From Liolophura sinensis (taxonomy: Eukaryota > Mollusca > Polyplacophora > Chitonida > Chitonidae): a stretch of DNA of 64,000 nucleotides. The stretch is from assembly GCF_032854445.1 (NCBI RefSeq), contig NC_088295.1, forward strand, positions 7,442,501 to 7,506,500, written 5' to 3'. The notes beneath the pieces are model-generated. The model was given only the letters and a program-made list of their open reading frames with translations. It searched no databases and was not told where the DNA came from. Position 1 is the stretch's first letter; every line of letters starts with the position of its first letter. A program made the position numbers and the translations under genes. Of the stretch, positions 1,947-58,800 are shown piece after piece.

Positions 1947-4900
1947 CGATTAATCTCAGCAAGCTTCGCTCTTAAGGCCAAGTTGAAGATTAAAGACTTG
2001 AAACGATTGGTCTTTGAGGCCGACAAAATCTGTTGGAAAGGAAAAAATCTGTGAAACATATGAAAATGACGACAGATCTATACATGGGGCATACTTGGGA
2101 TTAAGATAGACTTAATCTTTCTTAAGCCCAGACTGTACTTAATTAAGTAGGTACCATTAGATGATTGAACATTGTTCTTGGTTTAGACAAAAAAAATGCT
2201 TTCAGAGTGTAGGACCCGCAGTTAATCTTTTTTGGTTATTTGACAAGTCAGGAAGATAATTTAACTGGCAGGGATTTTCTTATCTGCGTGATAAGCATAT
2301 CTACATGACTTTTTTATGTTTTGTGTGTGGATTTTAGTACGCCATATACTGCCTTATGCAATTTACTCATGTTGACATTATCCACATTGCAGTAGTTGTA
2401 ACTACACGTTTCGTTCTGAGAATAATCTTCAATTTAATAGTCACAATTTTTTTTTCACGCACATATATATGTACATCTGTGTATATCAAATGCTGTGGAT
2501 TTGACAACTTCCTGCATTATGTAACCTGCCCATGCTGATTTCATCCATATAGTATGGCTTGTAACTGCGTGGTATCATCAGCACGCCTGTTTTAGATACA
2601 CGTACGCTTAGACTTGTCACACATCATTCATTCCAAGGGAGCCGCCATCAAACAAAATTTTCATCATCAACTAACACGGATTTCTGAACTGTGCAATTCA
2701 CAATCTATTTTAAGCTAGAATAAGACCTCACATAATTGCCTTGATAGCTAAGCGGCTACCTTGTCGTAGAGCCTGTTCAGTAGTCTGGGTACAGTGGCGA
2801 AGATGGTCGGCTTCAGCTCGGCGATGTCGTCCGTCAGGCGCTTAATGTCGCCTTGGTAAAACCCGATCTGTCCACCATTGGTGAACATCATGAACTTTGT
2901 GAAATAACAAGAATGAAGTGATATCAGTGCGACAGACAAACCACTTATGTCTCTGTTAGAGAGAATTTTACTTCCGGTCCCTGAACAAAGATCAGTAGAA
3001 TTCAGTGAATTAGTAGCTATTTCAGGACACCGCAATAAAATTGCGAGAAAACATATGTAATTAAAGCGGATGAAATTCCAGTTAATAAAAAAGCATCAAA
3101 TGTTATCATATTAAAGGTTTATCTTGTCCTGGCAGGTGATTGAACATTGGTGTCTGTAGCATTGTCAGCAACAATAATGCGTTTATCACTCTAATAATAT
3201 ACTTTTCCGAAACCTAGACAGCTTAATGTGTATATTCTTTGACCTCAACGATAACCCTTAAACGTAGACCTGTCATATACGTGTGTACAGTTGTCAGAGT
3301 TGGACTACAGTCATTCGCTTATTTACATGAACACTATGAAATATACATTCCTCCAACAGATTCGGCAAATGGTAATATACATGTGTAGCCATCGATTTAC
3401 TTGCATGTACCTCTCTCACTTACGAACCACCGAAAATTTGGCCTTTGGCCTTTGGCCATCGACTTCCCTGCATCACCTCTGGAACACATGTGTTGCCACA
3501 AATGTTGCCTTTGTACATCAACTTACCTGCATGCACCTCTCGAACATATGCGGCAGCGGTAGATATGACATGTGAACATCGTCAGGGGTGACTCTAAAGC
3601 CAAACTGTTGGATCAAATAGGGCAATCAATTCAAACTACATAAATAATTTACGTATAAGTCTGCAGATGAATGTATTACATTTCCGGGTTTAGCACAGAG
3701 GTAAACTAAGTACATTAGTTATTCCACCAGAATATAACACATTGTTACATTCAGTATGCTAATTATTTCGCAAGGTCTGTTTATATTATATTACACATGT
3801 TTATTATTCTTTCAAAACTAGCAACCAGCTGTTTCAGATAGTTTTATCACTCCAACAAAATCCCCGTAAATAAGATAAGAACGTAGTTATAAATGGGCAC
3901 TAATATTCAGTTATTTATGAATATATAAACATAACATACAGCATTCTTTAGCACTCCAGTTCCCGGAAGCATTGTTCGAAATTTATAAACAGGAACCTTG
4001 AGAGGAACTTACGAAATCAAACTTTGTGATGAAATCGACATTGGCAGCGATGTTGAAATGAGATAACATTACTCCCTTGGGATCACCTAATGCAAGAAAA
4101 CATGAAATTTGTTATGCAACTATAAACATTAGCAGTTCAGGATCATGAAAACAAGAAAATGTTTATCTAGTTATGTTCTACAAATACTGTCGCTTTAAAA
4201 TCATCTAAAACAAGAAAACATGGACCTTGTTATGGAACTACCAACATTATCTCTTGAAGGTCTCATGAAAACAAGAAAATGTGTAACTTGTTATGAAACT
4301 ATCGACAATGATGCTTTGAGACCACCTAAAACAGAGGCGGGGGGAGGGGGGATGGAGTTATGGAACTACTTCATGTGGCGTCGTTAAACTGTACATCGTC
4401 ACCTACTGCGAATTCTAGAAGTTCTTAAAACATCCAACCATAGCTATGACAATATTCAAATTGTTTTATTTTTAATTTTCTATTTTCCCGGACTAGAATA
4501 ATCGAATGTGAAGTATTCTGGCCAGTCCTAAATGTTTATTCTGCTTCTCTTTTCATGCAGAAAAGGTTATGGTCTTTTGGTCGCATATTCCACGGTTCCG
4601 AGGTAATATGCGAAAGCAAAACAGCAGGACTGGGCTCCGATCATCCCAATGGCACTTATATCCCCGAGCTCATCATTCACGGATGTTAGATAATTGTGTA
4701 GTCTGAGCAGTAAGGAGCATCATGGTATACGCATACCTGTGGTGCCGCTGGTATAACAGATAGTCGCTAAGTCCTCTGGTTTCGGAGGCTGTTTAAACAG
4801 ATCAAAATTTGGCTTATTTTACTATACATACATGTTACGAAATTTTATTAATCCCAGTATAATTATCAACAGACGAATGGTAATACTTATTTCTTCGTAA

Positions 4901-10900: not shown

Positions 10901-13900
10901 GTAATGGTACAGAAGGAAAAATCCAGTGAGTAATTGTAGAGAAGTATGATTTCAATAGGTAATGGTACAGAAGTACATCCCAATGGGTAATAAAAAACAG
11001 AAGTGAAATTTCAGTGGACAATGGTACAGAAGTAAAATTTCAATTTCTATTGGTACAGAGGGAACATTTGAATGGGTAATGGTACGTGCGTGTCGCACCT
11101 CAATCCGGCTAAGGCTGTAAATGCCCAGGAACGTCCCCTGACGGGGACATAAGCCTAACTCCAGTAGGCCCGATCCGAAATCCTTCACCCTGTCAAAAAC
11201 CTACAACATCAAGCTTGACATGAACGGGTCCGTGAGAACAACAATAATCAACAATCCTCATTAGTATAAAAGTCGCTTTTTAAAAAGGGCTAGACACTGA
11301 TCGTATTCAACAGAAAAGCAGTAATTCTCATTTAATATATGACAGCCACTGGTATTACTAAACCGAGCGTAAATCAGACAGTGATGATGATCATGTTTAC
11401 TTATCCCATAAAGTCCACTGAAAATAACTTTGATCATACGATATTTAGTTATAATATCTATCTCAACATGCCAGAGGATTACACCGACAAAACTCATTTA
11501 TCATACAGCAGCAACTGATTATGAACAACTCCGTGAGTGTCAGCCAATTATAATAATCACTTAGCATATAACAGCAAATGACTATGCTCACCTCCGCGTA
11601 TGTCAGCCATTGATAGTGACCTTCCGCGCCGCCTCTCTTCCCCAAGCATTTGCCATTTCCTGTTAACACACGTCTCAGTTATTCAAATGTGAACATACTG
11701 TAGATAAGGTGACTTACTGCATTCCTAATACGATATGCAGAACAACCCTTAATTTCGCAGTAATAAAATATGCTCACTGGACAAGCTGAAAGTGTCTGCT
11801 CATACGTATCTATATGTGGGCAAACACACGACCTCTCTCAAGGATGTTTATTCCGATGTATTCATGAATTGAGAGTTGGCAAAAAAAACTGGTATGGAAA
11901 TATCACCCAAAATTAATCACAGACTACATGTAAATAAATAATTTCATGATGTGGTCATACTATATATTACATGAGTATGGAATCTAACGCTTCTATTCAT
12001 GTATTAAGAGCCTCGCCCGCTTTGCTCTAGGGCACTGTAACACTTCCGGCATATAACTTCCTGGGCGTAACGTACGTGATATGCGGAGCCCCCTCTGAAA
12101 GCCCTCGTACAGCGTGTGGACATCCGGTAGATAGCATTCCTCTGAGAAAGGATCTGTGACTAGAGGAGATTGGTAAACACCATCCTGTCAAGAACATAAC
12201 AAATCATCTCAGTCAACAGCAGGTCTCCAATTATAGTGAACGTTCCCGGTCAATAATCACAAGACCGATTTCCAACATGACGTTCAACGGGAATTTATTT
12301 ATTTATTGATTGATTTATTTATTTATTTGATTAGTGTATTACGCCTGTATTGTCCTTCTTAACACTACAGATGTACATATGTTCCCCTCAACACTATAGA
12401 TGTGCTTATACTCTCGGCAAACACTATAGATGCACGTATGTTCTCCTCAACACTACAGATGTACGTATGTTCTCCTCAATACTACAGATGTAAGTATGTA
12501 TTCCTCAACGCTATAGATGTACGTAGGCCCTTAATCAATACTACAGATGTACGTTTACCCTCTGCAACACTATAGATGTACGTGTGTTCCCAATCAACAC
12601 TACAGATGTACGTTTGCTCCTAATTAACACTATCATGCTGGCTTCCTCTCCAGCCGTACGTGGGAAGGTCTGACAGCAACCTGCGGATGGCGTTTCCACC
12701 CAGCATAATGCTCGCCGCCGTCGTATAGGTGAAATATTCTTGAGTACGGCGTAAAACACGAATCAAAGAAATAAATAAATTAATTAATTAATTAACACTA
12801 CAGATGTACGTAGGCCCCTAATCAACACTACAGTGTACGTATGTCCCTAATCAACACTACAGATATACGTGTGTTCCTAATCAACACTACAGATGTACGT
12901 GTGTCCCTAATCAACACTACAGATGTACGTATGCCCCTAATCAACACTACAGTGAACGTGTGTCCCTAATCAACACACTACAGATGTAAAGTATGGCCCT
13001 AATCAACACTACATATGTACATTTGCTCCTAATTAAACTAAAGATGTACGTTTGCCCATAATCAACATTACAGATGTACGTATGCCCCTAATCAACACTA
13101 CAGATGTACGTATGCCCCTAATCAACATTACAGATGTACGTTTACTCCTAATCAACACTACAGATGTAAGTTTGCTCCTAAACAATACTACAGATGTACG
13201 TTTGCCCGTAATCAACACTACAGATGTATGTATGTCCCTAATCAATAATGCAGAAGTACGTTTGCCCCTAATCAACATTACAGATATACGTATGCCCCTA
13301 ATCAACACTACAGATGTACGTATGCCCCTAATCAACACTACAGTGAACGTGTGTCCCTAATCAACACACTACAGATGTAAAGTATGGCCCTAATTAACAC
13401 TACATATGTACATTTGCTCCTAATTAAACTAAAGATGTACGTTTGCCCCTAATCAACACTACAGGTGTACGTTTGCCCCTAATCAACACTACAGATGTAC
13501 GTATGCCCCTACTCAACATTACAGATATACGTTTACCCCTAATCAACACTACAGATGTAGGTATGTCCTTAATAAACACTACAGATGTACGTTTGCCCCC
13601 TAATGAACATTACAGGTGTACGCATGTCCCTAATAAACACTACTGATGTACGCTTAACACGAGCCCAATTCAGCTGGAGGAAGCTCCTTGTAGAACATGT
13701 CTGTCACACTAATGCTCTGATCATATTAAACAATCTGCTGTAAATAAGAAGGAATAATCCTATTCATTTTAATTAGGATTGTGAAAGATAACATACATCG
13801 AGCTCAATCCCCTGTCTGAGCCTGTGGACTGGGTGGCGCCGTGCCGGGCCGGGTCTGTTCAGGCACCTGTACACCGTGATGGCCAGCGCTAGCCCCACTC

Positions 13901-29690: not shown

Positions 29691-30914
29691 ATGGATGACG
29701 CAGAAGGAGACGACATGGAAGTCGTGGAAACGCGATCCACTACAAAACGAACGCGCGATTTTTCAACAGATAGAAGCTCCCAGGAAGGGAAGAAAGCAAA
29801 GCAGGTGGGTCAGAAGCAGGGAAATAACAATAACAATGTTGTAATTTCATCTATGGGGGGCTTACCCGTCACTGGGTGGAACCCAATTAAATTTGGTCAG
29901 AGTTTACAACAAGCAATTGGCAATGTAAAACAAGTAAAGAAAATTAACGGTAAAGACCTAATGATTGTTTGTAATAGTGCCACTCAAGTCAAAAAGGCAC
30001 TCAGCATAACAACGCTGATGGGAAGAGATGTCTCCTGCAGGCTGCACTCCAATATCACCCTTTCACGTGGGGTGATTTATGGGTTAGGGGAAGACATCAC
30101 TGAAGAAGAAGTACAACAAGCACTGAAAAAATACAAAGTAACGAAAGCACAGCGTCTGACTAAAGGGAAGGAAAAAACTAAAACCAAATGTATGTTGTTA
30201 TATTTTAATTCGGATGCACTACCGGAAGAAGTTTCTCTCGGTTACGAAATATTTCCTGTCAAGCAATATGTTCCACCCGCCATACGTTGCTTCAAATGTC
30301 AGTCCTTTGGGCATATTTCAGGGGAATGTAGGGGACGCCAGCGATGCCCAAGATGTGGCGGTCCCCATACATTTGATGAATGCCACAACCTGGATCGCCC
30401 CAAATGTGTCAACTGCGGGTCCCTGAGCCATAGCTCGGCGTATATGGGTTGCCCATATAGAAAGCAGGTATGTAAAGCGCAGTTCATAAAGGTTACCAAG
30501 AAAATTTCTTTTGCTGATGCTTTAAAATCAGTACGTGAAAAAGATAACCCCCATAGAATTCACCCAGAGGGGTCAAATGAGCGAGCTCTAACAGAAGGGC
30601 CGGTAGTGGATACCCCCCCAGAACAGCCAAATTCTATTACGATTACACCCGTCAAGCCAATCCTTAGGACCATAGCTACTCAAACCCCACGTGGTGAACC
30701 CACTCAGACAGACGATATGTCTTTCACAATGGCCACAACGCTTATCGCCATCTTTTCGGAAATACTAATAAAAGTCTTCGAAATCGAAGACCCTAAGAGT
30801 TTGGTACAAGTAGTGTTTAGCATCGCTCAGAGTCGTCTTGGCTCTGAGGCTGTTGATTTTAAAAGACTGAACAATATTCTATTTCCTGTGTCCTCGGATG
30901 ATGAACATTCATAA
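29691..30914 (+). CDS. Retrotransposon ORF1 nucleic-acid-binding protein
   Basis: 407 residues. The N-terminal third is charged (acidic start, then KRTRDFSTDRSSQEGKKAKQ). The middle has a fold-like block resembling the RRM-type region seen in such ORF1 proteins (inference). Three zinc knuckles follow: CFKCQSFGHISGEC (200-213), CPRCGGPHTFDEC (219-231) and CVNCGSLSHSSAYMGC (239-254). This Gag-like layout binds the element RNA in the transposition particle. The ATG follows GTTACAGCC and is shared with copy 1. The TAA stop overlaps the ORF2 ATG as TAATG, which suggests coupled termination-reinitiation. Confidence 0.9.
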   Translation: MDDAEGDDMEVVETRSTTKRTRDFSTDRSSQEGKKAKQVGQKQGNNNNNVVISSMGGLPVTGWNPIKFGQSLQQAIGNVKQVKKINGKDLMIVCNSATQVKKALSITTLMGRDVSCRLHSNITLSRGVIYGLGEDITEEEVQQALKKYKVTKAQRLTKGKEKTKTKCMLLYFNSDALPEEVSLGYEIFPVKQYVPPAIRCFKCQSFGHISGECRGRQRCPRCGGPHTFDECHNLDRPKCVNCGSLSHSSAYMGCPYRKQVCKAQFIKVTKKISFADALKSVREKDNPHRIHPEGSNERALTEGPVVDTPPEQPNSITITPVKPILRTIATQTPRGEPTQTDDMSFTMATTLIAIFSEILIKVFEIEDPKSLVQVVFSIAQSRLGSEAVDFKRLNNILFPVSSDDEHS

Positions 30915-39236: not shown

Positions 39237-42200
39237 ATACAGGCGTGGACAACAACAGCCTTGGAGTATCTGTCAGAGTATCGTGCGTACGTGGGAAGAT
39301 AAGTTGTAATCTTACTCGGTGGAGCGGCTGGTTACGCAATGTGGTCCAAACCTCAGCCTGTACCGACGAGGATAGATCCCGAGCACAGGTCTAAACAGCT
39401 AAAGGTGAGGCTTGCATCACCCTGAGTGTGCACAACCGATACCAAGCGGTCAGTATACAAAATCACAAAGGGTAACACCTCGCATGATCTTTACCTGGTG
39501 ACTCTACGCATCACACCAAACGGTTAGGATGCGGAATAACGAAGAGTAGCTCTACACATTGTGTCGTAACATGTCCAATCATTCATGAGATAGTTGTGAC
39601 AAACGTAACAACAATAACTTGTGCCCGTTCGTCGTTTGGAAATGTTAATGTATATTTATAATGTGGCTACAGGGCTTTTGTTTCAGGATGGAAGTCGGAT
39701 CATGGCGCAGTACACGGATCCATTCTCTGACGAATACATGATTGAAGACGTCCGGACGTTGTATGACGTTTTCAACAGGGGGCACCGCCTATCAAGTATG
39801 GAGTTTTGGTGTAGTATATGGAATCAAATGTCGTCAGGGTAACTAGCATGGGGCCAAGTACGAGTAGCAGAACTATGATAAAGCACTAACTCGACGAAAT
39901 TAGTAACAGGTTAAAACAGGAGAGAACGAACCGACTAGGCAGATACAACCAGGGGTTATTCCGTTAGAAAATACCTGGCTAGTGCCAGTCTCGGACAGCT
40001 ACTGCAGGGAATGGCTAGTGCCAGTCTCGGACATAGCTACTGCAGGGAATGGCTAGTGCCAGTCTCGGACATAGCTACTGCAGGGAATGGCTAGTGCCAG
40101 TCTCGGACATAGCTACTGCAGGGAATGGCTAGTGCCAGTCTCGGACATAACTACTGCAAGGAACCCCGTGGTTATTTAGAGTGCTCGGTATGTTTGTTGT
40201 AACTAACTGTTCGAGGACTATTGCATGTACAATTCGATGGTCAGTGCCAATGTTTCGCATTTCTATCGTCATGATTGTAAATGACTTCCTTTTCTAGTGT
40301 CTGTTGAAAGTAACCCCGTGGTTAGTGCATGTGCTTGGAGTCACTGTTTAGAAGATGCTTGGTTACAGGGCTCGACATGATTAATTTAGGCAAAATTCTG
40401 TCCTGTCTTGTGTCTAGTGATGGGTTTAGGTATAGTGAGTGTTGAGTTGTTGACTGTTATGATTATTACTGTGATTATTATGTGATTATTCTGATGTCGG
40501 CTGACTTTTCTCCTCACACAGAGCACAAGGCCTGCCTTGGAGAGAGGACTGGACCTGCCCAGAAGTATCAATGGATCACTTACGACGAGGTTAGTGTTAC
40601 TATCAATAACGCCAGCCTAGTGAATGTTAATTACATCATTCGTAATGTTCCCTTTGTCATTAAAGGTGGCTATTTGAGGTGTGTGCTTTCTTTTAAGGCA
40701 AGTTTAAATGTGAACATAATATACACGTATACGTTACTCTTTATTGGTCAGTACAAATTTGCGCATGTGCATCTTGTGGAAAGACACTTCCCTACACTTT
40801 ACATTTGTATGGATAGAAAATATCAGAAAAAAAAGCGTCAGAATTTAAATAAGCTTTATATTTCAGTTTTTGTACATTTTATTTTGTTGACTCTATTGTG
40901 AGTTGTAAATGTTTGATTGTGTTTAATGTTGTGCAGTGTTTCCACCCATGAAAGGGACTGCCGTCATTATAAGCCATACATTTATTTATTTGATTGGTGT
41001 TTAACACCGCACTCAAGATTTTTTCATTTATAGGCCTACCACCACGACCAGCATTATGGTTGAAGTAAACGGGCCGAACCTACGACCACCCTAAATGATA
41101 AATAATGAGCAGGAACTTTGTAGATTGCCCCGTTTCACTGTTTATGGGGCCATGGTAACAACAAATGATCGGCGACGCTCGTGCAGCGCATATCTGTTTG
41201 TCTGTATAAGTTCGCTAGTACTTTGTTAAATGTGACTGTTTTTTACCCTGTCTCTCTGATTTCCCCCACCTATAAATCTGGCCGCCACCTTATAACTTAA
41301 AATTTCCTAAATAACAATCAAATAAATACATTATACTTTCTTGCGTATACGGCATTAAGCGCCAAAAAAATTCACCTTAGTAAATATGTTGATATTCCTG
41401 AGTACGCGCGTAAAACACCGATCAATAAATAGCTAAATAAATACTTTGTTGTGGTGATATTGTACATTACTTCTGTTGTGTAATGTGTTATGATTGTGTG
41501 TCAGTTTATAATGTGGTGTTACTGTTGTACCTTTATCCCCCAGGCAATGACTCGCTCACGGAATTTTGGCTCGGGGCTGGTTCATCTTGGATTTCAAAAG
41601 GGAGATAACTTTGGCATTTACAGCGTGAACAACAGCAAAGTATGTAACATTTCAACTACAACGTGAAAAAGGCATAATTAGTATGTAATATATCATTTAC
41701 AGTGTAAATAACACCATCGTATCTTTTGGAGCATATATAGAGACAAAATATGTAATAATATCGTTGACAGACTAAATGAAACAACTATAACCGCTCTTGT
41801 TTAGTCAATGCGTTGTAATATTCCGCTCAAGATATCCAACTTTAATTTGTCTCTCCCCAACGAAATGCTTCTGCTGTTTAAAAAGTACAACACGTATTAA
41901 TATCTCCCGACATTTTTCTATTTTTCTGACAGTTGGTAGCGAACAAGCTTATGTATAGATATTGGTATCAGCCAGTAAGTCCTGACGGTAATGAAAATGT
42001 AGGGCCCCAAGCCCAAATTCAAATTAAAGGATTGGTTATTTATTCATAATTAGCTACCTCTGTATATGTTGTAAAACTGAATGTAAAAAATATTGGAAAA
42101 AGGTACAGGAGGCCTACTCTGAGTAATATGACATTAAAATCACTAGATAATGAAGCTGGGTTTATACATTTTTTCCGCCAACACTCGGTAGTCTCCGCCC

Positions 42201-45200
42201 AATGACGTCATACAAGTCCAACCATTACGAGTTGCCAGAACCATTTAGTTCATTGTTAAAAAGTCACACAAGTGACAGCAAACGTATCGAATTTTCTCCA
42301 GGAAACGATTTGCTGTTCTGCATGCGGTTGTAAAAACAGACCGTGGAAAAACCCTTGAGTTAGTTTTTTTCAAGTTTCCAGACGAGTTGACCCTCAGGAA
42401 AGCGTGGCTTTTACAGCACAAGACGAAAGGGTAGTACACCCACCACAGCCAAATCTTTGCCGGGCTGGTAGGAGTTGGAATACGGAGTCCTGGCGGGCAC
42501 CTAAATCTTAGCAGTAGGGAGAAAATTTAGGCTCTAAATATATGTATATAAACTCTGGTACTAGAGCTTGGTGGGTGTAAAATAAAGCGGGCGTTCATTC
42601 GTCATTAGTTTGATCAATCATTGGTATACCCGTAAAGTGAAAGAGAAGTAGATATAACCACTTGATGGCTTCCAATGAATGTCGCTTTGATACACAGTAC
42701 CCTGTTGGCTGTGTCTCTCCTGTGGACCAGTGAGTGAGCTTCTAAAAATTGTGAACTGTGTACATCAACACAATGGCTGTTTGGCAGCTACGACAATGCT
42801 AGCGGTTTCTGACTGGCTACAGAGACGATTAAAACCGAAACAATCCGAAACTAATATTTATTTATTTATTCAATTGATTGGTTGTTTTCGCCGTACTCAA
42901 GAATATTTCACTTACACGACGGTGGCCAGCATTATGGTGGGAGGAAACCTACGACCATCCGCAGGTTGCTGACAGACATTCCCACGTACGGCCAGAGGGG
43001 AAGCCAGCATGAGCTGGACTTGAACTAACTTCGACCGCATTGGCTCCTGTATCATTGCGTTGCGCTAACGCGCTGTCTAACTGAGCCACTGAGCCCAGGT
43101 TAGAAATGCCTGGGCAAACATCAAAATCAACGTCTGAAAACTCGGCATCTGAAGTCTGGCCAGAGATGTCAGTGTCATAAATCGAAACTTCAACGTCGTC
43201 CACTATGGATTCAAATTGATACGGCAGTATATTTGCTTCTGTGTAGGTAGAATCCGTCACGAAAATGACAACGTTTTGATACGAATTCCCAAGTTATATA
43301 GGCCAGATATGATGCCACCTGCTGAGCTTTACCGGGTGGCCAGCTGGAGATCCGCTAGGGCAGTAAATCTATCGTTTTTGGTGGATTTAAAGTTATAATT
43401 ACGTTTTTGAGAGACTCTCCCAGTAACATACTGTTAAACAGGTTATAAACTTCATACTAAGGACAAGTAAGTAAATCTAATCCTTTAATAAATCTTAAAT
43501 TTTGTTTGACAAGATTTTAACCAGTCAAATTGTATTTCTCTGTTCTCACGTCTTTTATGATATCAGCGGTTTGTTGTTATTGTTTCAGTGGGTACTGACT
43601 GAACAGGCCTGTAACGCCAACAGCCTTGTCACCGTTCCGCTATATGACTCACTTGGACCGGACGCGTTCAAATATATCATTAATTTGAGTAAGTGTACCA
43701 AACGATTTGTATTTACATGTAATATACATAAGTATCTATGACAAGTGATCCGTTATCCGACGTCATCACAATCAGGTGTACACCGGTATAGGTCATTGTG
43801 CCCAATCCTGATGTATATGTGCTTGGCCGTTCTTCATCTAGTCATACCCAAACGTTCCTGATCCTCGCCTGATAGGCCTTCGTCAGTTAATATGTCGTAC
43901 TTAAGTGTGCCTTTGGCCGGCATACTTGAATGTGTCACATCCTGGAATACTCGAACGTTCCTAATCCTTTAATACTCGATTGTTCCTGATCCTGGAATAC
44001 TCTAACGTTCCTGATCTTGACTTACTTGTACGCTCGGCGGTGCCGGCGGTACCTGAGTGTGCCTGTTCCCGGTATACTTGAATGTGTCACATCCTGGAAT
44101 ACTCGAACGTTCCTAATCCTGGAATACTCGAATGTTCCTGATCCTGGAATACTCTAACGTTCTTGATCTTGACTTACTTGTACGTTCCTGATTCTTGAAT
44201 ACTCGAACGTTCTTGATCCTGACATTCTTGTACGCGCCTCATCCTGAAATACCGGAACGTTCCTGATCATGATATATTGTACGCTCCTGATCCTGGAATA
44301 CTCGAACGTTCCTGATCATGACATACTTGAACCTTGACTTTCTTGATATACTTGTACATGTAGGCCTACGTTACTGTTCCTGGAACACTCGAAAGTTCCA
44401 ATGTAAGATATACGGTACGTTCTTATGTTAAGTTTACCTTTCAGCTGAATTGAAGGTTCTCGTTTGCGACACTGTGGACAGGGCAAGAAAAGTCGTCACG
44501 AACTCAGCTGAAATTCCCTCATTAAAAACTATCATTATTATGTCGGATATGGATGATGATCTGAAGAAAGACGCCACAGAGAAAGATTTATGTATTTACA
44601 CATTTGAGCAAGTTGAGGTAATTTACTTATTATTTTATCACCTGGGTCTTTCAGCGACCTGCGGATTGTCGTGGGTTTCCCCATGGCTCTGCCTGAGTTC
44701 TTCCCACCATATTGCTGACCGCCGTCGTATAAGTGAATATATTCTTGAGCACAGCATACATCACTAATCAAATAAATAAATAAATTTGCTCACCTGTTTT
44801 TCTATAAAATACAAATACCACCATTTCTGGTTAGAAAAATTAATACATATGTAAATCGCGTAAGAGCAAGATATGAAGGAAATAACATGTCTGATGCTGT
44901 TTTCTGGACGGCGCTTCCAACTTGATGGGAATTCCTCATACACAAAACTCTAAACTGTTCTCTGTGGTGGTGCTGCAATTACGTTTACATACTATAGACC
45001 ACAGGGCCACCATAGGGACACCGTCTGGTCAATTGTATCCTGTCTGCATCATTGGTTGTTGTCCTCCAGAATAGTAAATGCTCCATTCTCTTCTCTTCAC
45101 AGACATACGGGATTAACAATCCACATGAAGCCTCTGTAAGTAGTCTGGCCACCTAGCCTATGTTAATGATATAAGTTAGGGGTGTTATATATATTATATA

Positions 45201-46748
45201 GGCGGACTATATTTGAGTAATTGTACCAATCGATTTGTATTTACATGTAATATACATGAGTATCTATGATCTCATTGGAGATAAACCTACGTTAACCACA
45301 AGTTCATATTGGCCAAGTCATTGTGAATAAGCCAAAGTAATCCACAAATTCGTATTGGTAAATTCACTGTGGATAAAGCCAAAGTAAACCACAAATCTGT
45401 CTTGGTAAAGTCTTTGTGGATAAGCCAAAGTAAACCACAAATCTGTCTTGGTAAAGTCTTTGTGGATAAGCCAAAGTAAACCACAAATCAATATGGGTGG
45501 AGTCATCGTGGATAAGCCAAAGCAAACCACAATTTCGTATTGGTGCAGTTATTTTGGATAAGTCAAACCACAAATATGAACTACAAATCTGAACCACAAA
45601 TCTGCATGGGTAGTCATTGTGGATAAGCCAAAGAAAACCACAAATCCGTATAGGTAAAAGTGATTGTGGATAAGCCAAAGTAAAATCACAAATGTGTGAG
45701 TCATTGGTGATAAATACACTACAAATCCATATTAGTAAAGTCATTGTGAAGAACTTTATTAAAGTAAACAGCACATTCATATTGGTGAGGTAATTGTAAA
45801 CAAGCATACATTAAGCAGAGATTCCTGTCGGTAAAAGTGAGTGTGGTTATAATTTATAAACCCATTGTGGATATTATAGTTCCCTAATCTTGTACATCTC
45901 TAACCTTGCAGCCTCCGGCCCCTTCAGACCTCGCCACGATCTGCTTCACCAGCGGCACCACCGGTAAGCTCGACGTTACGATAAAGCTCGACGCTACATT
46001 AAAGCTCGGCACTACACTAAAGCTCGGCACTACATTAAATCTCTGCACCACAGAAAAATTTACCACCAATGAACGCGTGAATGCGCATTTCCAGTGTGTT
46101 TCTGCAGTTACTACTAAGATTGTTCATTGACCTTCGTCCAAATGCATGTACTTGTAGGCTTCCCCAATAAGTTACACTGTACCTACTAATGAGAGTGGCA
46201 TTAATATGTTGGATAGAGTACATGTACATATCTTGTGTTGTGAGCCAGTACTCGTGTAAGCAGGACAGAGTATAATAATGTGAACCAGAGTTAAGACAGA
46301 AGAGTACAGGGCAAGTTGCTCCCATGCAAACACGCATCCTGGCGTGACTCGTACCCAACACCAGTCACATCGTATCCGGTACTATGCCAGTCATACCCAG
46401 CTTTTAAATCATCAAAATATTCAAATATTTCTAAACGTATTTGCTGACCACGGGAGGCTTTGTACGGCTTGAAACAATACAAATTGAACATCCTTCACTT
46501 GCTCAGCGGCTACATTAATTCATTCTCTTAATATATGTAAATGACGTGACTATTCAGATCCCTTCTCTTATCCAGGATGAACTGCGATCATGTTGGAATC
46601 TGTATTTCTACACATATTACACCATGCAGAATTGGGTGTGATGCGTATTATTTTTTGACTTTGGACAGGTACTCCTAAAGGAGCTATGCTTTCCCACGCC
46701 AATATTGTGAGAAATGCGAGCACTCTGTCCTCCACACCTGATCATGTG

Positions 46749-46835
<87 letters not shown>

Positions 46836-49800
46836 ACATACATGGCTGTCTGTGCAAGTAACACTGACTGTTAACTTCCTTTTATGTACTCTGGTTTTAT
46901 GCATGTTTATGAAGATGTCACGTTTGCAGTCCTGGTTTTTCATTCACAAAATTTATGTCTTCCAACAACTTTCTTCTCTACGCCGACACAAATGTGTTTC
47001 TATTTTACCTGCTTGTATACCCTCAAGTCAATTCAGCCAGTGAACTAATTAGAAACGAACATGGGGCCTCCGTGTCAATTCAGCCAGTGAACTAATTAGA
47101 AACGAACATGGGGCCTCCGTGGCTCAGTCGGTTAAAGCGCTAGCGCAGCGTAATGACTCAGGAGTCTCTCACCAATGCGGTCGCTGTGAGTTCAAGTCCA
47201 GCTCATGCTGGCTTCCTCTCCGGCCGTATGTGAGAAGGTCTGTCAGCAACCTGCGAATGGTCGTGGGTGTCCCCCGGGCTGTGCCCGGTGTTTCCACCCA
47301 CCATATTGCTGGCCGACGTCGTATAAGTGAAATATTCTTGAGTACGGCGTAAAACACCAATCCAAAAAAAAAAAAAGAAACGAACATTAATACACTCTTT
47401 TCTTTCTTACAGATCGGGAAGATGTTCTCTGCTGAGGATTGTCATTTTTCATATCTTCCCTTGGCACATATGTATGAGAGGACAATACAGGTACATTTAA
47501 CATAATGAGAGGACAATGCAGGTACATGTAACACAATGATAGGACAATACAGGTATATGTAACATAATGATAGGACAATAGAGGTACATGTAACACAATG
47601 AGATGACAATACAGGTACATGTAACACAATGAGAGGACAAGACCGGTACACGTAACGCAATGAGAGGACAATGCAGGTACATGTAACAATGATAGGACAA
47701 TACAGGTACATGTAACATAATGAGATGACAATAGAGGTACATGTAACACAGTGAGAGGACAATACAGGTACATGTAACATAATGATAGGACAAGAAGGTA
47801 CATGTAACACTATGATAGGACATTACAGGTAATTATAACACAATGATAGGACATTACAGGTACATGTAACACAATCGGAGAACAATACAGGTACATGTAA
47901 CGCAATGAGATGATAGCACAGGTGTATTTAACATAATGATTATTTTGACAGAAGTTTAAATAATTCAAATACACCTGACCAAAATAATCTCAATACATCT
48001 TACCACAGCGATTTTGTAGCCGACCAAATTTCCTTAGTTTAGGTTATAACGCTAAATGCTGGTTCTCCCCAGGCAATGATGTTCTTACACGGATGCCGGA
48101 TAGGGTTTTTTCGAGGTGACGTGAAGCTGCTGGTAGAAGACATGCAGGAACTGAAACCCACCATATTTACTGCTGTACCCAGGTTGCTGAACCGGATCTA
48201 TGATAAAGTAAGACTTTCTGTGTGGTATTATCAACACTGCATGACGTATAACCATAAAAACTGTACTGTACTTAAATATCACACGGCTGTCAATTATGAC
48301 AATAGCTTAAAAGAAAAGACACTACCAGGCTGAATGCATATATGCACCGACAAAGTATTCCACTTGAAATTTAAAAAAGCAGAACTTTTATTGTCTTTGT
48401 GATGCTGCACAACCGAGGTATCACAGTTTAAAGTAAGATAATGTTACGCCATGTTACCAGTTTTGATCAGTTTGACGCGAGTTATCTCTTTAACCTAAGA
48501 ACTTGCCGTTTAACAATATGAGCGTGAGGTATGAGTGAGGCCACATCCTTCTTCCGGTTTCTTTAACATGGCACATCCCATGAATTCGTAAGAACTGCAG
48601 ATTAAAAATTGACTTGTTGAGTTCAGAAAAAAAGAAAAAGAAAAAACCATCAGAAAAACTGGCTGTAACCGTTTAAGATTCCATACCTTTTCCTGAATAT
48701 CTGAGATTATAGTGAGTGCTGCTTTTTTAAATCTGTAAACTATCGCGGTAGTAGGCCTATTAAGGTGCAAAATGTAACAGAAACACAGCTCTGCCAGTTA
48801 TGGCAGTAGATTAAAGCAAAAGACCACCTAAAGATGGAGAGTGCTTCAAGAGAAAACACATTTGTATCTCAAAATACTCTTACTTTTTGTAGATTCTTTT
48901 TTCTCACTGAATGAAACCTGGAAGTGCATTCCTTGGTTTGTTAAAGTGGTCCTATAGAGGGCATGTTGACATTTTGCAGCTTTAGGCCACTGTAATGTAA
49001 GGTAGATTTAAGCTTGTGTGGTAGGTAGGAGTATGAGATTGAGAAATGCGGCATATCTAGGCTGCTGTAGTGTCCCAAAGTGTGTATAGTGTGATATATT
49101 GAGTCACTTCAGTGTACCTGTAACCAATGCGTTTTGGGCTGTTGTGACTTGGGCGAACCCGAGTAAGTATTCAATGATTTGCGGCTGATTTAGGCTGCAT
49201 TACAGCATTGTTACTTGTCCTGTAAGTGTGTCTCTTGTGTTACGGAAGGGGTTAAAATAAATGAAACTGAATCCATACATTTAGTGTATGTGTAGTATTA
49301 CTGCATGCCATAAGCGGCTGATATATGGATGTCTTACTATCAGATTCAAGCGGGTGCTCAAGGCAGTCGAATAAAAAAGTTCTTACTGGATACGGCCATT
49401 CGACAGAAACAAGCGGAAATAGAGCAGTAGGTGGTGTTTATTCTAATAAAAAATAATCTGTTATTGAGCATACAGTTATGTTTTTGAGTGATAGCAGAAT
49501 AGAGTCTGGGAATGTTACACAGTACGAACAAAAATGTTCACTTAGATTAATGGAACAAGTTATAGTTTGTGGTAATGTAATCTATTCTGTCATCACTCAG
49601 GACAGAATATTCTGTCACTTCGCGACCTGCACTCTAACAAACTAGTACTATAATTGTTTTTTGGGGGTGTAGGTCACCAGCTAATGATAAAAGTTTGCCA
49701 ATTTTTTTGCTCCTTACAGGTAAGAATATATATGTACATAGAAAGGCAATCCAACAGTCCCCTTACTCAGTTTTCTTCTTTTCAACAGGGGAATCGTGCG

Positions 49801-52800
49801 TAAAGATTCTTTCTGGGATAAGCTCGTGCTTCACAAAATACAAGCCCTTCTCGGTGGCAATGTACGAGTGATAACGACTGGATCGGCTCCATTGTCTGAG
49901 GAAGTACTCAAATTTATGAGAGCGGCATTGGGTTGTCTTGTGAGTTCGTTGGAATATCTATATGTATATTCTCAGGTTTTGCATCAATGTTAGACAGTAC
50001 TACTTTGCGGTGTATACTTCTTCACCCTAAAGGAGTATTATCTGAGGTTGACTTTTTCAATCACAGCCTTGAACAGGGAATTTCTAGATTTTCCCAATCC
50101 AATTATTCGTGGGACCAAGAAAACGGCAAGCATTAGTCTATCAAACAAACCTTGGTTAAGCTGAAACAGAAGATAAAGCTTTATTTTTTCCCATCCTGTC
50201 ACACACCTGGCAAGTTTCATGCAAATTGACAACACGTTTGTTCTATCACTGATAGATAATGGAAGGTTACGGTCAAACTGAAGCCACGGCTGCTGTGACA
50301 TTCCAGTATGCGGGGGAACGAGAAACGGGTGAGTGACATTCTAAAATATAAAACATCTGAAAGATATTCTGACGACCTTCACCTTGTGGCGAAATTCACC
50401 ATGACGTTATGTCGTCAGGGGTCAACTCATCAGTTGATATCATCAGAGCAAATCAAATAACGTTATGAATCAACATGGTTTGTTAACAAACCATACTGTA
50501 CTACAAATATCAGGCGTATTGAAGGTAAGAGTAGGTGCATTGTACCTGCATGTTTATGTGTCGGAGATATTGCCTTTGTGGACGGCAGCATGCTATTTCA
50601 CACGCGGAGATTTCTGCTTTGAAGAAAAATGATTTCCTTGTGAATGGCTGATTGTGAAAAACAGTTTTCTTCGCTGAAAGTTATTGTGTATGTAAACCGG
50701 TTAACTAACTTTACCAATAAACAGCTTAATGCCATACTAGTAAGTATATATTGAAAACATTCAAGAAATTGACGTGAAATTGCATGGCAGTAATGAGCCA
50801 CCGTAAATCAGGAGTGTGAACCTATTATCAGCGGCTTTTCCAATGCGCTCCAGTTAAAGTCGCCGGAAGCCTGTGATCTGTGATCGTGGTATGTTGCTGT
50901 ATCTACAAAATGTCTTGACATTATACAGGCTTTAGCAACTGAAATGATCTCTTTGCTTTCAGCTAAAGACATTTTGCAGTGGAAAACTTTTCTCGCTAAA
51001 GCTGTGTAGTTTGTTGCTTACTAACGTAACGTAACTGGTAACGTATTGTCTGATAGTACTCCTGCATTTAGAAGAACGGTCAATCCAGCTTGAACCCGAG
51101 TCGCCATTGCCGGGGGAAAATCATTGTCGCAATCTGATAACGTTGGTAAAGACCCCGATCCTCCTTTGTAAATTTAACTTTGGACGCTTCGATGTAAGAT
51201 TTCACCAATGTTCGTCTTGTCTTCAAATACGACAGGACACGTGGGGGGACCAGTCGCCTGCAACTATGTGAAGTTGATTGACGTCCCGGAGATGGACTAC
51301 CACTGTTCTGACGACAAAGGCGAGGTGGGATGGTACATGTATGGGCATAAGCTAAGACAACCTACTGGCAGGTCCAGTGAATGATGTTTTAATTCTAAAG
51401 ATGGTCATTGGCATAACCAGGGGAAGTATTAGCTTAACGAGTCATTAGCGTAGAGGATCACAGTAAATGCTATTTTTGCTATGATATCTTGTCTTAGCCA
51501 GATTAGGTGAACGATATCTTGTCTTGGCCAGGCTAAAAGTGAAAGATGTCTTGCCTAAGGCAGGCTAAGTGAACGATGTCTTGTTTTAACCAGGCTAAGT
51601 AAAACGATGTCTTGTCTTAGCCAGGCTATGTGAATGATGCATTGGCTTAGTCAGGCTAAATGAATGATGCATTGGCGTAGTCAGGCACAGTTAATGATGT
51701 ATTGGCTTACACAGGAACAGTGAACGATGTATTGGCTTAGTCAGGTTAAGTGAATGATGCATTGGCTTACGCAGGAACAGTGAACGATGTATTGGCTTAG
51801 TCAGGTTACGTGAATGATGCATTGGCCTATTCAGGCACAGTTAATGATGTATTGGCTTACACAGGAACAGTGAACGATGTATTGGCTTAGTCAGGTTAAG
51901 TGAATGATGCATTGGCTTAGTCAGGCACAGTTAATGATGTATTGGCTTACGCAGGAACAGTGAACGATGTATTGGCTTAGTCAGGTTAAGTGAATGATGC
52001 ATTGGCCTATTCAGGCACAGTTAATGGTGTATTGGCTTACACAGGAACAGTGAATGGTGTCTTGACTTAGTCATACTCAGTGAATGATGCATTGGCTTAC
52101 GCAGGAACAGTGAACGATGTATTGGCTTAGTCAGGTTAAGTGAATGATGCATTGGCTTACGCAGGAACAGTGAACGATGTATTGGCTTAGGCAGGTTAAG
52201 TGAATGATGCATTGGCCTATTCAGGCACAGTTAATGATGTATTGGCTTACACAGGAACAGTGAACGATGTATTGGCTTAGTCAGGTTAAGTGAATGATGC
52301 ATTGGCTTACGCAGGAACAGTGAACGATGTATTGGCTTAGTCAGGTTAAGTGAATGATGCATTGGCCTATTCAGGCACAGTTAATGATGTATTGGCTTAC
52401 ACAGGAACAGTGAACGATATATTGGCTTAGTCAGGTTAAGTGAATGATGCATTGGCTTAGTCAGGCACAGTTAATGATGCATTGGCTTACACAGGAACAG
52501 TGAACGATGTATTGGCTTAGTCAGGTTAAGTGAATGATGCATTGGCCTATTCAGGCACAGTTAATGATGCATTGGCTTACGCAGGAACAGTGAACGATGT
52601 ATTGGCTTAGTCAGGTTAAGTGAATGATGCATTGGCCTATTCAGACACAGTTAATGATGTATTGGCTTACACAGGAACAGTGAACGATATATTGGCTTAG
52701 TCAGGTTAAGTGAATGATGCATTGGCTTAGTCAGGCACAGTTAATGATGCATTGGCTTACACAGGAACAGTGAACGATGTATTGGCTTAGTCAGGTTAAG

Positions 52801-55800
52801 TGAATGATGCATTGGCCTATTCAGACACAGTTAATGATGTATTGGCTTACGCAGGAACAGTGAACGATGTATTGGCTTAGTCAGGTTAAGTGAATGATGC
52901 AGTGGCCTGTTCAGGCACAGTTAATGGTGTATTGGCTTACACAGGAACAGTGAATGGTGTCTTGACTTAGTCATACTCAGTGAATGATGCATTGGCTTAC
53001 GCAGGAACAGTGAACGATGTATTGGCTTAGTCAGGTTAAGTGAATGATGCATTGGCCTATTCAGGCACAGTTAATGATGTATTGGCTTACACAGGAACAG
53101 TGAATGGTGTCTTGACTTAGTCATACTCAGTGAATGATGCATTGGCTTACGCAGGAACAGTGAACGATGTATTGGCTTAGTCAGGTTCAGTGAATGATGC
53201 ATTGGCCTATTCAGGCACAGTTAATGATGTATTGGCTTACACAGGAACAGTGAATGGTGTCTTGACTTAGTCATACTCAGTGAATGATGCATTGGCTTAC
53301 GCAGGAACAGTGAACGATGTATTGGCTTAGTCAGGTTAAGTGAATGATGCATTGGCCTATTCAGGCACAGTTAATGATGTATTGGCTTACACAGGAACAG
53401 TGAATGGTGTCTTGACTTAGTCATACTCAGTGAATGATGCATTGGCTTACGCAGGAACAGTGAACGATGTATTGGCTTAGTCAGGTTAAGTGAATGATGC
53501 ATTGGCCTATTCAGGCACAGTTAATGATGTATTGGCTTACACAGGAACAGTGAATGGTGTCTTGACTTAGTCATACTCAGTGAATGATGCATTGGCTTAC
53601 GCAGGAACACTGAACGATGTATTGGCTTAGTCAGGTTCAGTGAATGATGCATTGGCCTATTCAGGCACAGTTAATGATGTATTGGCTTACACAGGAACAG
53701 TGAATGGTGTCTTGACTTAGTCATACTCAGTGAATGATGCATTGGCTTACGCAGGAACACTGAACGATGTATTGGCTTAGTCAGGTTAAGTGAATGATGC
53801 ATTGGCCTATTCAGGCACAGTTAATGATGTATTGGCTTACACAGGAACAGTGAACGATGTATTGGCTTAGTCAGGTTAAGTGAATGATGCATTGGCTTAC
53901 GCAGGAACAGTGAACGATGTATTGGCTTAGTCAGGTTAAGTGAATGATGCATTCCTATTTAGGCACAGTTAATGATGTATTGGTTTACACAGGAACAGCG
54001 AATGATGTCTTAGCTTAGTCATTTGCAGTGACAGTGAGTTGATGTCTCTACATGACTTCCAACATACGTGGTCATGTACTTATGCTAATCATATCTATCA
54101 TTTGTCGAATCATCCTCAGGTCTGCGTAAAGGGGCCGAACGTATTCCAGGGATACTACAAACAGCCTGAGTTAACAGCCGATGCGATAGATGAGGAGGGC
54201 TGGCTGCACACAGGCGATATCGGAATGTGGCTCCCTGTAAGATCACCTGCCTGTATGCCTTCCTGTGCAATCTGTCAGTTAGGTTGACCTACAGCCGTGT
54301 GTCGTAATAAATACGTAACTTTACTGTCTGTAGGACTCATTTTTTCATACTTAGAAAACATAAGAAATATGCCTCAACATTAACACAGGTGCAATACTGC
54401 AGACGCAATGCAAAAGAAAAGAATAAGCTAAAGAAATGACATAGCAGTACATGCTTTTGAATTGAACTTTTTCATCTATATACCTCCTTTTCAGAACGGA
54501 GCTTTGAAAATAATTGATCGGAAAAAGAACATTTATAAACTGGCTCAGGTAAGTCTCGAATATTTGTAGTCTGCACTGCTTTTGGTATCTTTATGGGGAA
54601 TGTCTGTTTTGGATCATGTTGTGGTGGAAAGTAAAGTGAACATAGTCCGCCACTATATATACATAGAAAAAACGATATAGGACACAATTATCACAGAAAA
54701 TATGTGAAAAAATTATATAAAGTTTATATTGGGGATATGGCTCTGACGGACAATTCACTCCCGAGTACCCATTTTATAAAAGCCCTTATGAACTTGGCCA
54801 GTCACTAGCGCTGAATGCGTCACGTGATGATTGACAGCCAAGTCAAAAAACCTATTAGCTCTCGATTGTCGGTGTGGTTTCTTATAGTGGATAGACAAAT
54901 AGCGACGCAATGAATTGTATTTTGCGATTAGGTTCAGTGTTAAATCGATGCATTTTGAACCACACATATATGAGCAAGGAACAATGCGTGCATGTTGGAC
55001 AGGGTACGGCAGTAACTTGTCAGGATGAACTGGCAAGAAAACCGCTACGGGAGAGTCATTTTTTTTAAGAAAAAACAGTATGACTTTGCATTACTTTTCC
55101 TTAGCAAAGTCAGATTTAGTACGAAAATCTCTTCCCAAAATCGGAATGAAAGAGTGTCTTATTAATCAGAAGACCCTGCTATATTGGGCAAATTCCCTAA
55201 AGTCAATACAGCCAGATATGCCAAATGCTTACACCCATGCAGGACGAGAACCAGTAGGGCGGCTAAAACACGACGCTTGGGTCCACGTAAATCGCCCTGA
55301 CCAAGCGCCCCAAAATAAACATCGGCCCTTTGAACATGGAACAGAGCTGATACTCCTTGGTTGGGTATCAGGTGTTTTTGTTTGTATTTTCTCATTGTCA
55401 CATTGTTTAATACCGATGGTAAGGGAGAACGCATAGGTTTTGTGACGTCACTCTAGATAGCTATAACATGGCAAAATTGTGTCACCAAAAAGTGGCTAAG
55501 TACTGACGATCGTTTGTTATTACTTTGCTGCTAAGCGATGTAGAATTTTCTAAATATTTATAGAAAATTTCTGGAATACTACTTCATTATATGATTCAGC
55601 TTTAGTGGCTGACTTTATGTTCACTTTGAACATTCTACAGTGGTAAAACTAGACGTATGTTTGTTCAAAGATTCTTACGTGTATTAATAGAACCATTTGC
55701 CATTCATACAGCTCTTCGACATTAATATATTTTTTGACTCTTTCAGCTCATTGATATTAATGCAGCACTTTATCATCCATCAGCCGTTTGCAATTCATCA

Positions 55801-58800
55801 GCCCTTTATCATTCACACAGCCCTTTGATATAAATGAAGTCCTTGCTGCTCCTACAGCCCCTTGCCATTCATCAGCCCTTTACCATTCATCAGCCTTTTT
55901 TCATTCATTAGCCATTTGCCATTCGATAGCCCTTTGCAATTCACACAACCCTTTGGTATAAATGCACCCCTTTGCCACCCATACAGCCCTTTGCCATTTA
56001 TTAGCCCTTTGCCATTCATTGGGACTTTGCCATTCATTGGGACTTTGCCATTCACACACCCCTTTGCCACTCATACAGTCCTTTGCCATTCATTGGCACT
56101 TTGCCATTCACACAGCCCTTTGCCATTCATACAGCCCTTTGCCATTCATTAGTTCTTTGTCATTCATGAGCACTTTGTCATTTGTACAGCCCTTTGCCAT
56201 TCATACAAAAACGTTCGTCAAAGAGACTGGTTGTGCTTAACTACACTTAAGGTATGAACCACCAGGAGTGTGTCGGCAAATCTGTTTTAAAAAGTGTATG
56301 TATTGTGCTGAGCAGGGCGAGTACATAGCCCCGGAGAAGATAGAGAATGTGTACGCGCGAAGTGCCTTTGTCATGCAGGCCTTTGTGGATGGAGACTCTT
56401 TAAAGGTTCGTGTACATACGCTTCTGTATCCAAAACATGAACGTGCTCAACTATGTATATATATATATAAAATAAATATATTCTTGTTGTGATTGTCTGA
56501 TACAGCCTTCAGCAATATCCCCTTACATTCAACATCGTCCTGTATTTTTTTTGGTTCTTCGCCATTTTGAGTCTGTAAGTTTGCCAAATTCCTTTTTCAT
56601 TGGCATGCCCTGTTTTTGAGTCTGGCTCTTTGGTATACCCATGTGTTTTCCGTCTACATAGGCCTATACCTCATTGTGTGGCCTCTATGGCTAAGGTGAC
56701 CCAGAAGCCACTCACCAGTGCGGTGACTGAGTTCTAGTTCATGCTGGCTTCCTCTCCAGTCATACGTGGGAAGGTCCTCCAGCAACCTGTGGATGGTCGT
56801 GGGATCTCTCTCCGGTTTCCTCCCACCATAAGTGAAATATTCTTCAGTACGAAGTAAAACACCAATCAAACAAATAAGGAAATAAATACCGTATTGTTAT
56901 ATCCAATGATTTCCGTCGGATTGTATATCCAGTGGTTCAAATCTGTCTCATTCACATGTCCTATGTTTTAATCTTGCCTCATTGATATGTCCTACAGTTC
57001 AAGTCTTTCTCATTGGCATATCCCATGTCTCACATGCATGTCATATGCTTTAAATTTGCCTGTTTGGGATATCTTTTTTTTTATTCTGCCACACTGACAT
57101 GTACTATGTTTTCAGACCTGTTCTATGGCGGTAATCGTTCCGGATCCAGAAGTCTTAATCCCATGGGCGCGTGGAAAACATCTTGAGGGGGAGCTTCAAG
57201 AATTGTGCAAAAATCCGGTATCTGTTTAATACTTTGCTGAACTGCGAAACTTGTTATTTGCCTCGTGACACATGACTCTAAATTATTAATCACCGTTACC
57301 AATTCCATCCTCCTTTTTTTAAAAAAATAAAATGAGCAGTTCTCGCCATTAGGTAAAACATTTAAACCGGTTCCACTGGATGATGTGATAGAAATGTGAA
57401 TATCCAGTTTGTACACGTTGTGCTAAAAACAATTTGTGGGGCATTTTGACCAGAAATTAAGCATGTACCGATCTTTGTACCGATCGTAAAAGAACATGTA
57501 TTTTTCAACCTTATTATGTCCCTGATCTCGCTTTATCTGTTCCAGTCATATTTTGATTTCCAGTGTGTCTTTCAGAGTTGTTTGTTATGTCCCCTTGCAA
57601 ATGCAATGACTGTATCTTTATTTACACCTGTCCGTCTGCTGGTGTGTGTGCGAGCGTGGGCTGGGGTGTGGTATCCTGGTGATATCTTGTGTACACGATT
57701 TGTCAAAAGCTATTAAAGATAGAGCTTTTGGTACACACATTCTCCTCTCTGCGTGCAGGACAGATCAAACTATTATTATTCTGTTTTCGTTACTTCACAG
57801 ATTTTGTACTTGGTCGTTTTCTATTCAGGAACGCCCTACTTTACGCTTTTGCATAATTGGTGCAGTGCTGCTATACGCCTGCAGTTTTGCTGAGGAGTTG
57901 TTTTTTGTTTGTGTTTGTTTGTTTGTTGTTGTTGTTGTTTTTTGTCAAGTGATACAGTATTTAGTAGTGTTATTGGCATTTGTTTTTCAGATCGTTAAGC
58001 AGGAAGTTTTCCAGGACATTTTAGACGTGGGAAAATCTCATGGTCTGTCATCTTTAGAGCAGGTAGGTGTTTCAGGACATGTTAGTACAGGTATGGATTC
58101 CTACAGATATTATGCACCGGGGAATTGGTGTACATGTCGTCGGCACCACGAGGTAGATATTGGGACATTTCAGGAAAGGGGCGTGTAAGTGTATGTCGTC
58201 ACTACAAGTAGATATCAAGACATAGTGAAAAACGAGACTTTAAGAAACTGTCGGGACGTTTTGGAATGGGGGGGGGGGAGTTCAATGAACATCTTTCCGG
58301 CGAAAAGGAAATGTCAGGCCATATTACTTATAAGATCAGGGGAAATTCTTCGTTAGAACAAGTATATGTCGAGCGATGTTAGACGAGGAGTGACTTGAGC
58401 CATGGTGGTAAAGGATGTTAAAGCATTGACATGATCTGTTAAAAACAAAAAAACTAAATGAGGTAATTTTACACCAGACAAAATTGGGTGCGACCAGATG
58501 CAAATTATGACACTGCTCTCAGTGATGTCTACAGTCTTCTAACAGGAGTGCTAGAGAATATTTCAGCTTCAGACACCGCTCCGTTCGGTCCATTGAGGCC
58601 AAAGTTGAGACCAAGAGCTAAACGACGACTACAGTATGACATCATTCAGAACGTAGCTTTCCAGTGCGTAATGATTTTGATGGATATTTATTGCAGATTC
58701 GCTTACAGTCGTCTTTCAGTGGGATGATATAAACAGCTGTAACGGGTGTAAAACAGATATTTTTAGTGATACTTCATGATATGGGAATTAATGCAACTTT

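Follow-up and report, generated by a model that had tools for sequence, protein, structure and literature searches.

Tandem repeats that straddle exon–intron borders are already on record. The closest described systems are the lancelet mirages, which span such borders in the Adh, globin, troponin C and PGBD5 genes (PMC3087553, PMC3902484). Mirages are reported to vary in length (PMC3087553, PMC3902484), and RT-PCR, as described there, points to regular splicing going on undisturbed (PMC3087553). Within the open-licence literature consulted, the papers with the word mirage in its splice-junction sense are these lancelet ones. A human counterpart is the VNTR of ABCA7 intron 18, whose 25-bp unit includes the exon 18 donor and which holds 12 to about 427 units (PMC5954066). 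There the donor of the next unit is used at 2 ± 1%, shifting the frame and leading to decay, and exon 19 skipping rises with VNTR length (PMC5954066). Human segmental duplications carry variable internal tandem repeats, with units averaging ~30 bp, some of which are described at exon–intron borders (PMC2812944). The Rogers model derives new introns from tandem duplication of AGGT segments, and multiple 24-bp duplications in fission yeasts are cited under it (PMC4974935).

Here we characterize an array of this type in a mollusc. The window, meaning the whole 64,000-nt stretch of DNA that was analysed, contains two ACSL (long-chain acyl-CoA synthetase) genes arranged head-to-head, and in one of them the end of exon 8 is repeated, together with its donor, into the adjoining intron. 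Judged from its sequence, the array is most likely neutral, slippage-made DNA that is spliced at its exon-proximal site. The fuller reading, of a mirage-type array that is exon-derived, made by slippage and functionless, with splicing at the exon-proximal position 47491, has in our estimate a probability of about 0.85.

The exon 8 array and its origin

The features of the two genes and of the array are as follows.

39687-59038, plus strand: ACSL gene, 19 exons found
12184 down to 1947, minus strand: ACSL gene, 10 exons found in the window
47413..47490, plus strand: ACSL exon 8, phase 0, ending ...HMYERTIQ; the final 17 bases supply the exonic portion of each repeat unit
48073..48207, plus strand: ACSL exon 9; intron 8 is 582 bp, of which the array makes up 449 bp
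3527..3604, minus strand: exon 8' of the minus-strand ACSL gene, homologue of exon 8; the introns that follow the two exons agree in codon position and in phase
47474..47939, plus strand: minisatellite spanning the junction of exon 8 and intron 8 (TRF: 31 bp x 15.1, 83% matches)
47522, 47553, 47584, 47615, 47646, 47677, 47706, plus strand: decoy donors 1-7
47737, 47768, 47798, 47829, 47860, 47891, 47922, plus strand: decoy donors 8-14
47474..47477, plus strand: left ATGA, a 4-bp direct repeat at the founder-unit edge in exon 8; read directly, with a putative role in slippage
47936..47939, plus strand: right ATGA, the end of the last copy; read directly

The joined peptide of exons 8 and 9 matches the Pfam AMP-binding family (3.4e-12), and at least six further exons of the minus-strand gene lie within the next 20 kb. 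Two details of the exon models are soft: the donor of E14' is uncertain, and E3' may start further upstream. In the plus-strand gene, an AC microsatellite of 45 units (46746-46842) has its start 6 bases inside the donor of exon 7.

Each unit of the array joins 17 exonic to 14 intronic bases, and the consensus is identical to exon 8 across all 17 copied positions. TRF and the comparison of copies thus bear out the preliminary description, which had reported a 31-bp unit copying the last 17 bases of an ACSL exon and the donor, followed by about 14 copies after the real donor; there are exactly 14, from 47522 to 47922. Together with the true donor at 47491 they give 15 GT sites spaced 29-31 bases apart. 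That most copies keep an intact CAG/GTACAT (the slash marks the border) proved half right: GT is kept in 14/14 decoys (15/15 with the true donor), GTACAT in 10/14 and the exact CAG/GTACAT in 7/14. AG directly precedes GT in 13 of the 14, copy 6 reading CCG. The span first given, 47413..47935, also needs adjusting, as the array ends at 47939 and positions 47413-47473 are unrepeated exon. Copies differ from the consensus by ~10%, at many positions. The anatomy is that of a mirage, a tandem unit lying across an exon–intron border with its copies adjoining the true border.

Sequence searches place this array once. In its own intron the exon 8 junction 34-mer reaches a score of 55, whereas none of the 26 other donor-side introns gives it more than 19. 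When the 609-Mb genome was searched with the array at the DNA level (609,464,459 bases in 632 contigs, very common words skipped; the window is C1:7442501-7506500), three places were returned, namely its own locus and two weak matches (70% and 66%); both of these are other minisatellites, which have the word TACATG in common with it. On the strength of that search we reject a dispersed repeat, the two further matches being other arrays. Two other repeated elements were seen along the way. The palindrome TACATGTA occurs 24 times in the window, 10 of them in the exon 8 array, against 2.5 expected, and is also present in a weakly matching array on C6. A SINE-like element at ~47110-47360 and in other places ends in GTCGTATAAGTGAAATATTCTTGAGTACGGCGTAAA; the window has 7 such ends with at most 3 mismatches, and the element may resemble the molluscan (limpet) Nin-DC SINEs. 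Neither viral_contigs nor genome_contigs contains an exact match to it.

The direction of copying can be read from the coding half of the unit. The 17 copied exonic bases encode ERTIQ, within a motif whose counterpart in the paralog is FERCMQ. What was copied is thus the coding end of a conserved ACSL motif, and the exon must be the source and the intron the recipient. The sequence TTTAACATA is common to the first and last copies alone and is presumed to be the ancestral start of the intron. In a mirage the copies at the cluster boundary would be expected to escape homogenisation; here the last copy is 54-71% identical to the others and alone markedly diverged, the first 78-94% like the inner ones. 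A founder flanked by ATGA, with TTTAACATA confined to the edges, fits an ancestral 31-base duplication followed by turnover of the inner copies. The closest pairs of copies, 3/8 and 5/9 (97%), lie at distances of five and four units, a hint of block duplication within the array; several other pairs reach 94%.

What the sequence shows is that a 31-base segment, bounded by the ATGA of exon 8 and the one at the start of the intron, underwent tandem duplication into the intron and grew to 15 copies. The first duplication may have been replication slippage between the two ATGA repeats, as the 4-bp repeat suggests; later growth would have come from slippage or unequal exchange inside the array. The suggestion in the preliminary description that the array arose by tandem duplication across the exon–intron border holds, given that the exon is conserved coding sequence and that the founder lies between two ATGA. 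We saw no intron gain by duplication at exon 8, where the same phase-0 intron is present in both paralogs, after ...HMYERTIQ in exon 8 and ...HMFERCMQ in exon 8'.

Arrays at other exon borders

Comparable copies lie at other borders of the two ACSL genes. Each junction 34-mer was scored against the adjacent intron and, as non-cognate controls, against all other introns; a copy was counted if it extended 5 bases or more to both sides of the border and scored at least 22. Junction-crossing copies were found at 6/66 borders of the two paralogs, against 9/2,112 non-cognate comparisons. Donors contributed 4/33 (exons 8, 8', 2' and 3; controls 5/1,056) and acceptors 2/33 (exons 7' and 12'; controls 4/1,056), with best non-cognate scores of 33 and 27, respectively. 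The scores of exon 3 (22), exon 7' (23) and exon 12' (23) are marginal, but at exons 7' and 12' arrays with several or many copies lend added support.

3384..3490, minus strand: two degenerate copies of the exon 8' end and donor, spacing ~60-66 bp versus 31 bp at exon 8; CAG/GGAAGT in 3448-3490, CAA/GTAAAT in 3384-3415
11516..11546, minus strand: one degenerate copy of the exon 2' end and donor, period 63 bp, GT lost
41658..41694, plus strand: possible degenerate copy of the exon 3 end and donor, gapped, of marginal score
4093..4297, minus strand: 59-bp array at the exon 7' acceptor (exon 4013-4086), of marginal score
L012:2248-4604, minus strand: 32-bp array of ~73 copies reaching the first bases of exon 12'
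45966..46052, plus strand: 18-bp array beginning inside the exon 6 donor (exon end 45963), copies lacking GT

The exon 8 and 8' arrays look independent, since their periods differ. Units of the exon 7' array comprise the acceptor region and the first exon bases, with AG kept in 1/3 upstream copies. In the exon 12' array AG is absent from 72/73 copies; the founder may have lost its AG before expansion. With 5 exonic bases shared, copying out of the exon is presumptive at this border. The exon 6 array abuts its junction rather than spanning it and is uncounted among the junction-crossing cases.

A second gene family shows the same pattern. A myosin-head search gave 81 matches, from which 7 loci were picked by place, their sequence unseen beforehand. 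Exon edges here are approximate, being the cores of a paralog comparison. Arrays cross the junction at 4 of about 97 exon edges, a denominator made up of 50 donor and 50 acceptor edges plus 5 from L038, minus ~8 from four SINE-like cores; these are four of 52 cores, and none of them is a counted case. With 50-base windows at score 30 and no crossing filter, 3/50 donors and 2/50 acceptors had copies, compared with 6/2,450 donor and 2/2,450 acceptor control comparisons. Among these edges one donor (L032) and two acceptors (L036, L037) cross the junction, as judged by eye.

L032, donor: exon end ...CCAGCTGTTGTTG/GTAAGTCAG, 31-bp array x 6.2 copies, GT in 6/6 donors
L036, acceptor: 95-bp array x 3.1 copies, 3 intact acceptors plus ~48 exon bases
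L037, acceptor: one upstream copy of the acceptor and exon start, with another array between the copies
L038 with L039, acceptor: TCTTGTCTGCTGTGTTTGTAG/GTTTGAGCG before exon ERNQSIIVSGESGAGKT, 32-bp array x at least 34.8
C2:5377401-5383200, positions 1-1105 of the joined stretch: the L039 and L038 acceptor array, decoys TGTAG/GTTTGA; true exon start at about 5378497

At L036, use of either upstream acceptor copy would yield a stop. The acceptor ladder of L038 and L039 is more striking than the exon 8 donor array: 31 decoy acceptors with AG precede the true one, and 27 of these match it at all of 21 intronic bases. The acceptor motif is missing from about three more units, and the array runs beyond the examined stretch. 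The three exon cores of L038 supply 3 donor and 2 acceptor edges (core 1647-1904, SINE-like, was left out), and at its second acceptor (score 25) the copy does not reach into the exon. Arrays at L033 and at the L037 donor begin just inside the intron and were left out of the junction-crossing count.

Do junctions attract such arrays, or are they carried along? Among random 34-mers taken from inside ACSL introns, 191/656 had a downstream copy that lay no more than 700 bases away and reached score 22, and 61/459 did so once three array-rich introns were set aside; in this comparison 4/27 ACSL donors and 1/27 acceptors had a nearby copy. Enrichment of junctions over other intronic positions is thus unsupported, and because introns at large are duplicated about as often, the junctions look like passengers of general tandem duplication. 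Arrays would be visible on the intron side only because copies inside an exon would break the protein.

The region as a whole is rich in minisatellites. Their share is 17.6% in the window; it is 52% and 35% in the two 10-kb stretches that precede it and 9.7% and 27% in the two that follow, compared with 3.9% over 14 10-kb stretches at round positions on C1, C6 and C8. The haemocyanin stretches have 1.0% and 0.5%, and the six myosin loci examined first 1.4-36%. Arrays that are otherwise unrelated often have a period of 29-32 bp, both in the window (at 10822, 12361, 12789, 17698, 17959, 47474 and 51483) and at L012, L032 and L038. On C8 we noted eight consecutive haemocyanin beta-sandwich matches; the molluscan haemocyanin plan is described as eight functional units (PMC7931591). 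On this ground the host is taken to be a mollusc, and a lancelet is rejected; 14 control genomes, in which myosin heads gave no match either, carry no weight in this. The window also holds two LINE-like elements in tandem (endonuclease, reverse transcriptase, RNase H), at 22464-27374 and 29676-34741, which are 98.7-100% identical over their aligned parts and have the window's only N run (28255-28454) between them; the pair is either a real duplication or an assembly duplication.

Splice-site choice among near-identical donors

Pairing with U1 is at or below the true donor's -7.1 kcal/mol at 9/14 exon 8 decoys, with copies 3 and 12 better than the true donor. These values support the early suggestion of a ladder of near-identical donors; that the ladder matters to the spliceosome is conjecture. 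Since so many decoys equal or exceed the true site in U1 pairing, sequence alone does not explain why the true site should be chosen. Between competing equal donors, the intron-proximal one would be favoured. RNA structure as a means of hiding the decoys was rejected: 92/100 shuffles fold at least as well as the array (z +1.41), and the predicted accessibility of the true donor, 0.35, falls within the decoy range of 0.00-0.72.

Every decoy takes in GTA CAT TTA ACA TAA, so that the reading becomes ...RTIQVHLT and then stops. The preliminary description had argued for frame shifts from most decoys on the ground that 31 is not a multiple of 3; that argument is unneeded, because all decoys give this same early stop. 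The exon 8 array shows no sign of selection on its decoy donors, whose bases are no better kept than its other columns. The invariance of GT is itself no evidence of selection, because 11/31 columns and 5/30 adjacent column pairs are invariant too.

We propose that splicing picks the exon-proximal donor at 47491, which would be made first and would alone have a complete exon before it. If a decoy were used now and then, the outcome would be a single truncated product, ...RTIQVHLT-stop, expected to be cleared by nonsense-mediated decay. The array itself is probably without function, and would survive because its copies sit inside the intron alone, leaving the mRNA unaltered while the outermost site is used.

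The decoys might be put to use in other ways. A regulated poison extension, in which they are used on purpose and the VHLT-stop lowers ACSL output by decay in certain tissues, would suit both the U1 pairing of the nine strong decoys and the stop common to all of them, and ABCA7 offers a precedent of low decoy use with decay. We consider it unlikely, as the decoy bases are kept no better than other array columns and similar arrays lie at unrelated myosin borders, which speaks for a general mutational cause. Less likely again is scarless recursive splicing, in which an AG/GT unit serves as acceptor and rebuilds the same donor, leaving the final mRNA unchanged. The 14 kept GTs, 13 with AG directly before them, would allow this, each step leaving the mRNA intact. 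A recursive (ratchet) splice site, however, is a pyrimidine-rich 3' splice site joined directly to a donor, and the units lack a pyrimidine tract ahead of CAG, where the array consensus has 3 pyrimidines in 14 bases (ATGAGAGGACAATA). Intron 8, moreover, is just 582 bp long.

Other readings concern how the array came about. Junction arrays might be made by a process that seeks out splice sites, for example R-loops or spliceosomes paused at borders, and not by general duplication. The homologous ends of exons 8 and 8' both have arrays, of different periods, and ACSL junction copies stand far above the non-cognate controls. Such a process is nevertheless improbable, for nearby copies turn up in introns at large as often as at junctions or more often, and minisatellites fill the region (17.6% of the window versus 3.9% over the 14 sampled stretches). 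Misassembly is the least probable of all: tandem arrays are prone to it and the window holds a 200-base gap (28255-28454), but the copies diverge from their consensus at many positions, the array sits in a 96-Mb contig, and similar arrays are found at other places on C1 and also on C2. Slippage that happened to start across a junction remains the preferred account, and the arrays at other ACSL and myosin borders support the same process as at exon 8.

A wider reading, which we advance tentatively and at somewhat less than even odds, is that junction-spanning minisatellites form a genome-wide class here, present at a few percent of borders and with tens of intact decoy donors or acceptors at single borders, among which the site is chosen by place and not by strength. 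The spliceosome would have to choose by place because decoys and true site are nearly identical. If this is true, the choice would fall on the exon-proximal site, with exon definition or the order of transcription deciding it, and junction arrays would be ready-made natural tests of splice-site choice: they hold the sequence of the site near constant while its place varies, so RNA reads would reveal the choice among equal sites. Their presence in two unrelated gene families of one mollusc suggests a general outcome in minisatellite-rich genomes.

Comparison with known junction repeats

Set against the described systems, the exon 8 array comes closest to the lancelet mirages: its unit spans the border, its copies adjoin the true border and many keep AG/GT. 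The unit sizes given for lancelet Adh3, 10-72 bp, cover its 31 bp. It differs in its mollusc host and in offering a donor array of 14 decoys and, elsewhere in the genome, an acceptor array with at least 31. Like the ABCA7 VNTR, the array takes in the true donor; the ABCA7 unit is described as starting with GT, whereas 17 of the 31 bases of the exon 8 unit are exonic. The repeats of human segmental duplications change exons or make novel introns, while the exon 8 intron is old and common to both paralogs. As in the Rogers model, a segment bearing AG/GT has been duplicated in tandem; unlike in that model, no new intron has formed at exon 8, the paralog having its intron at the same position and phase.

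Such arrays yield more cases for studying splice-site choice, possible intron gain and repeats like that of ABCA7. Arrays of this kind are already known, from the lancelet mirages and human ABCA7; what is added here is the mollusc phylum and their recurrence within one genome.
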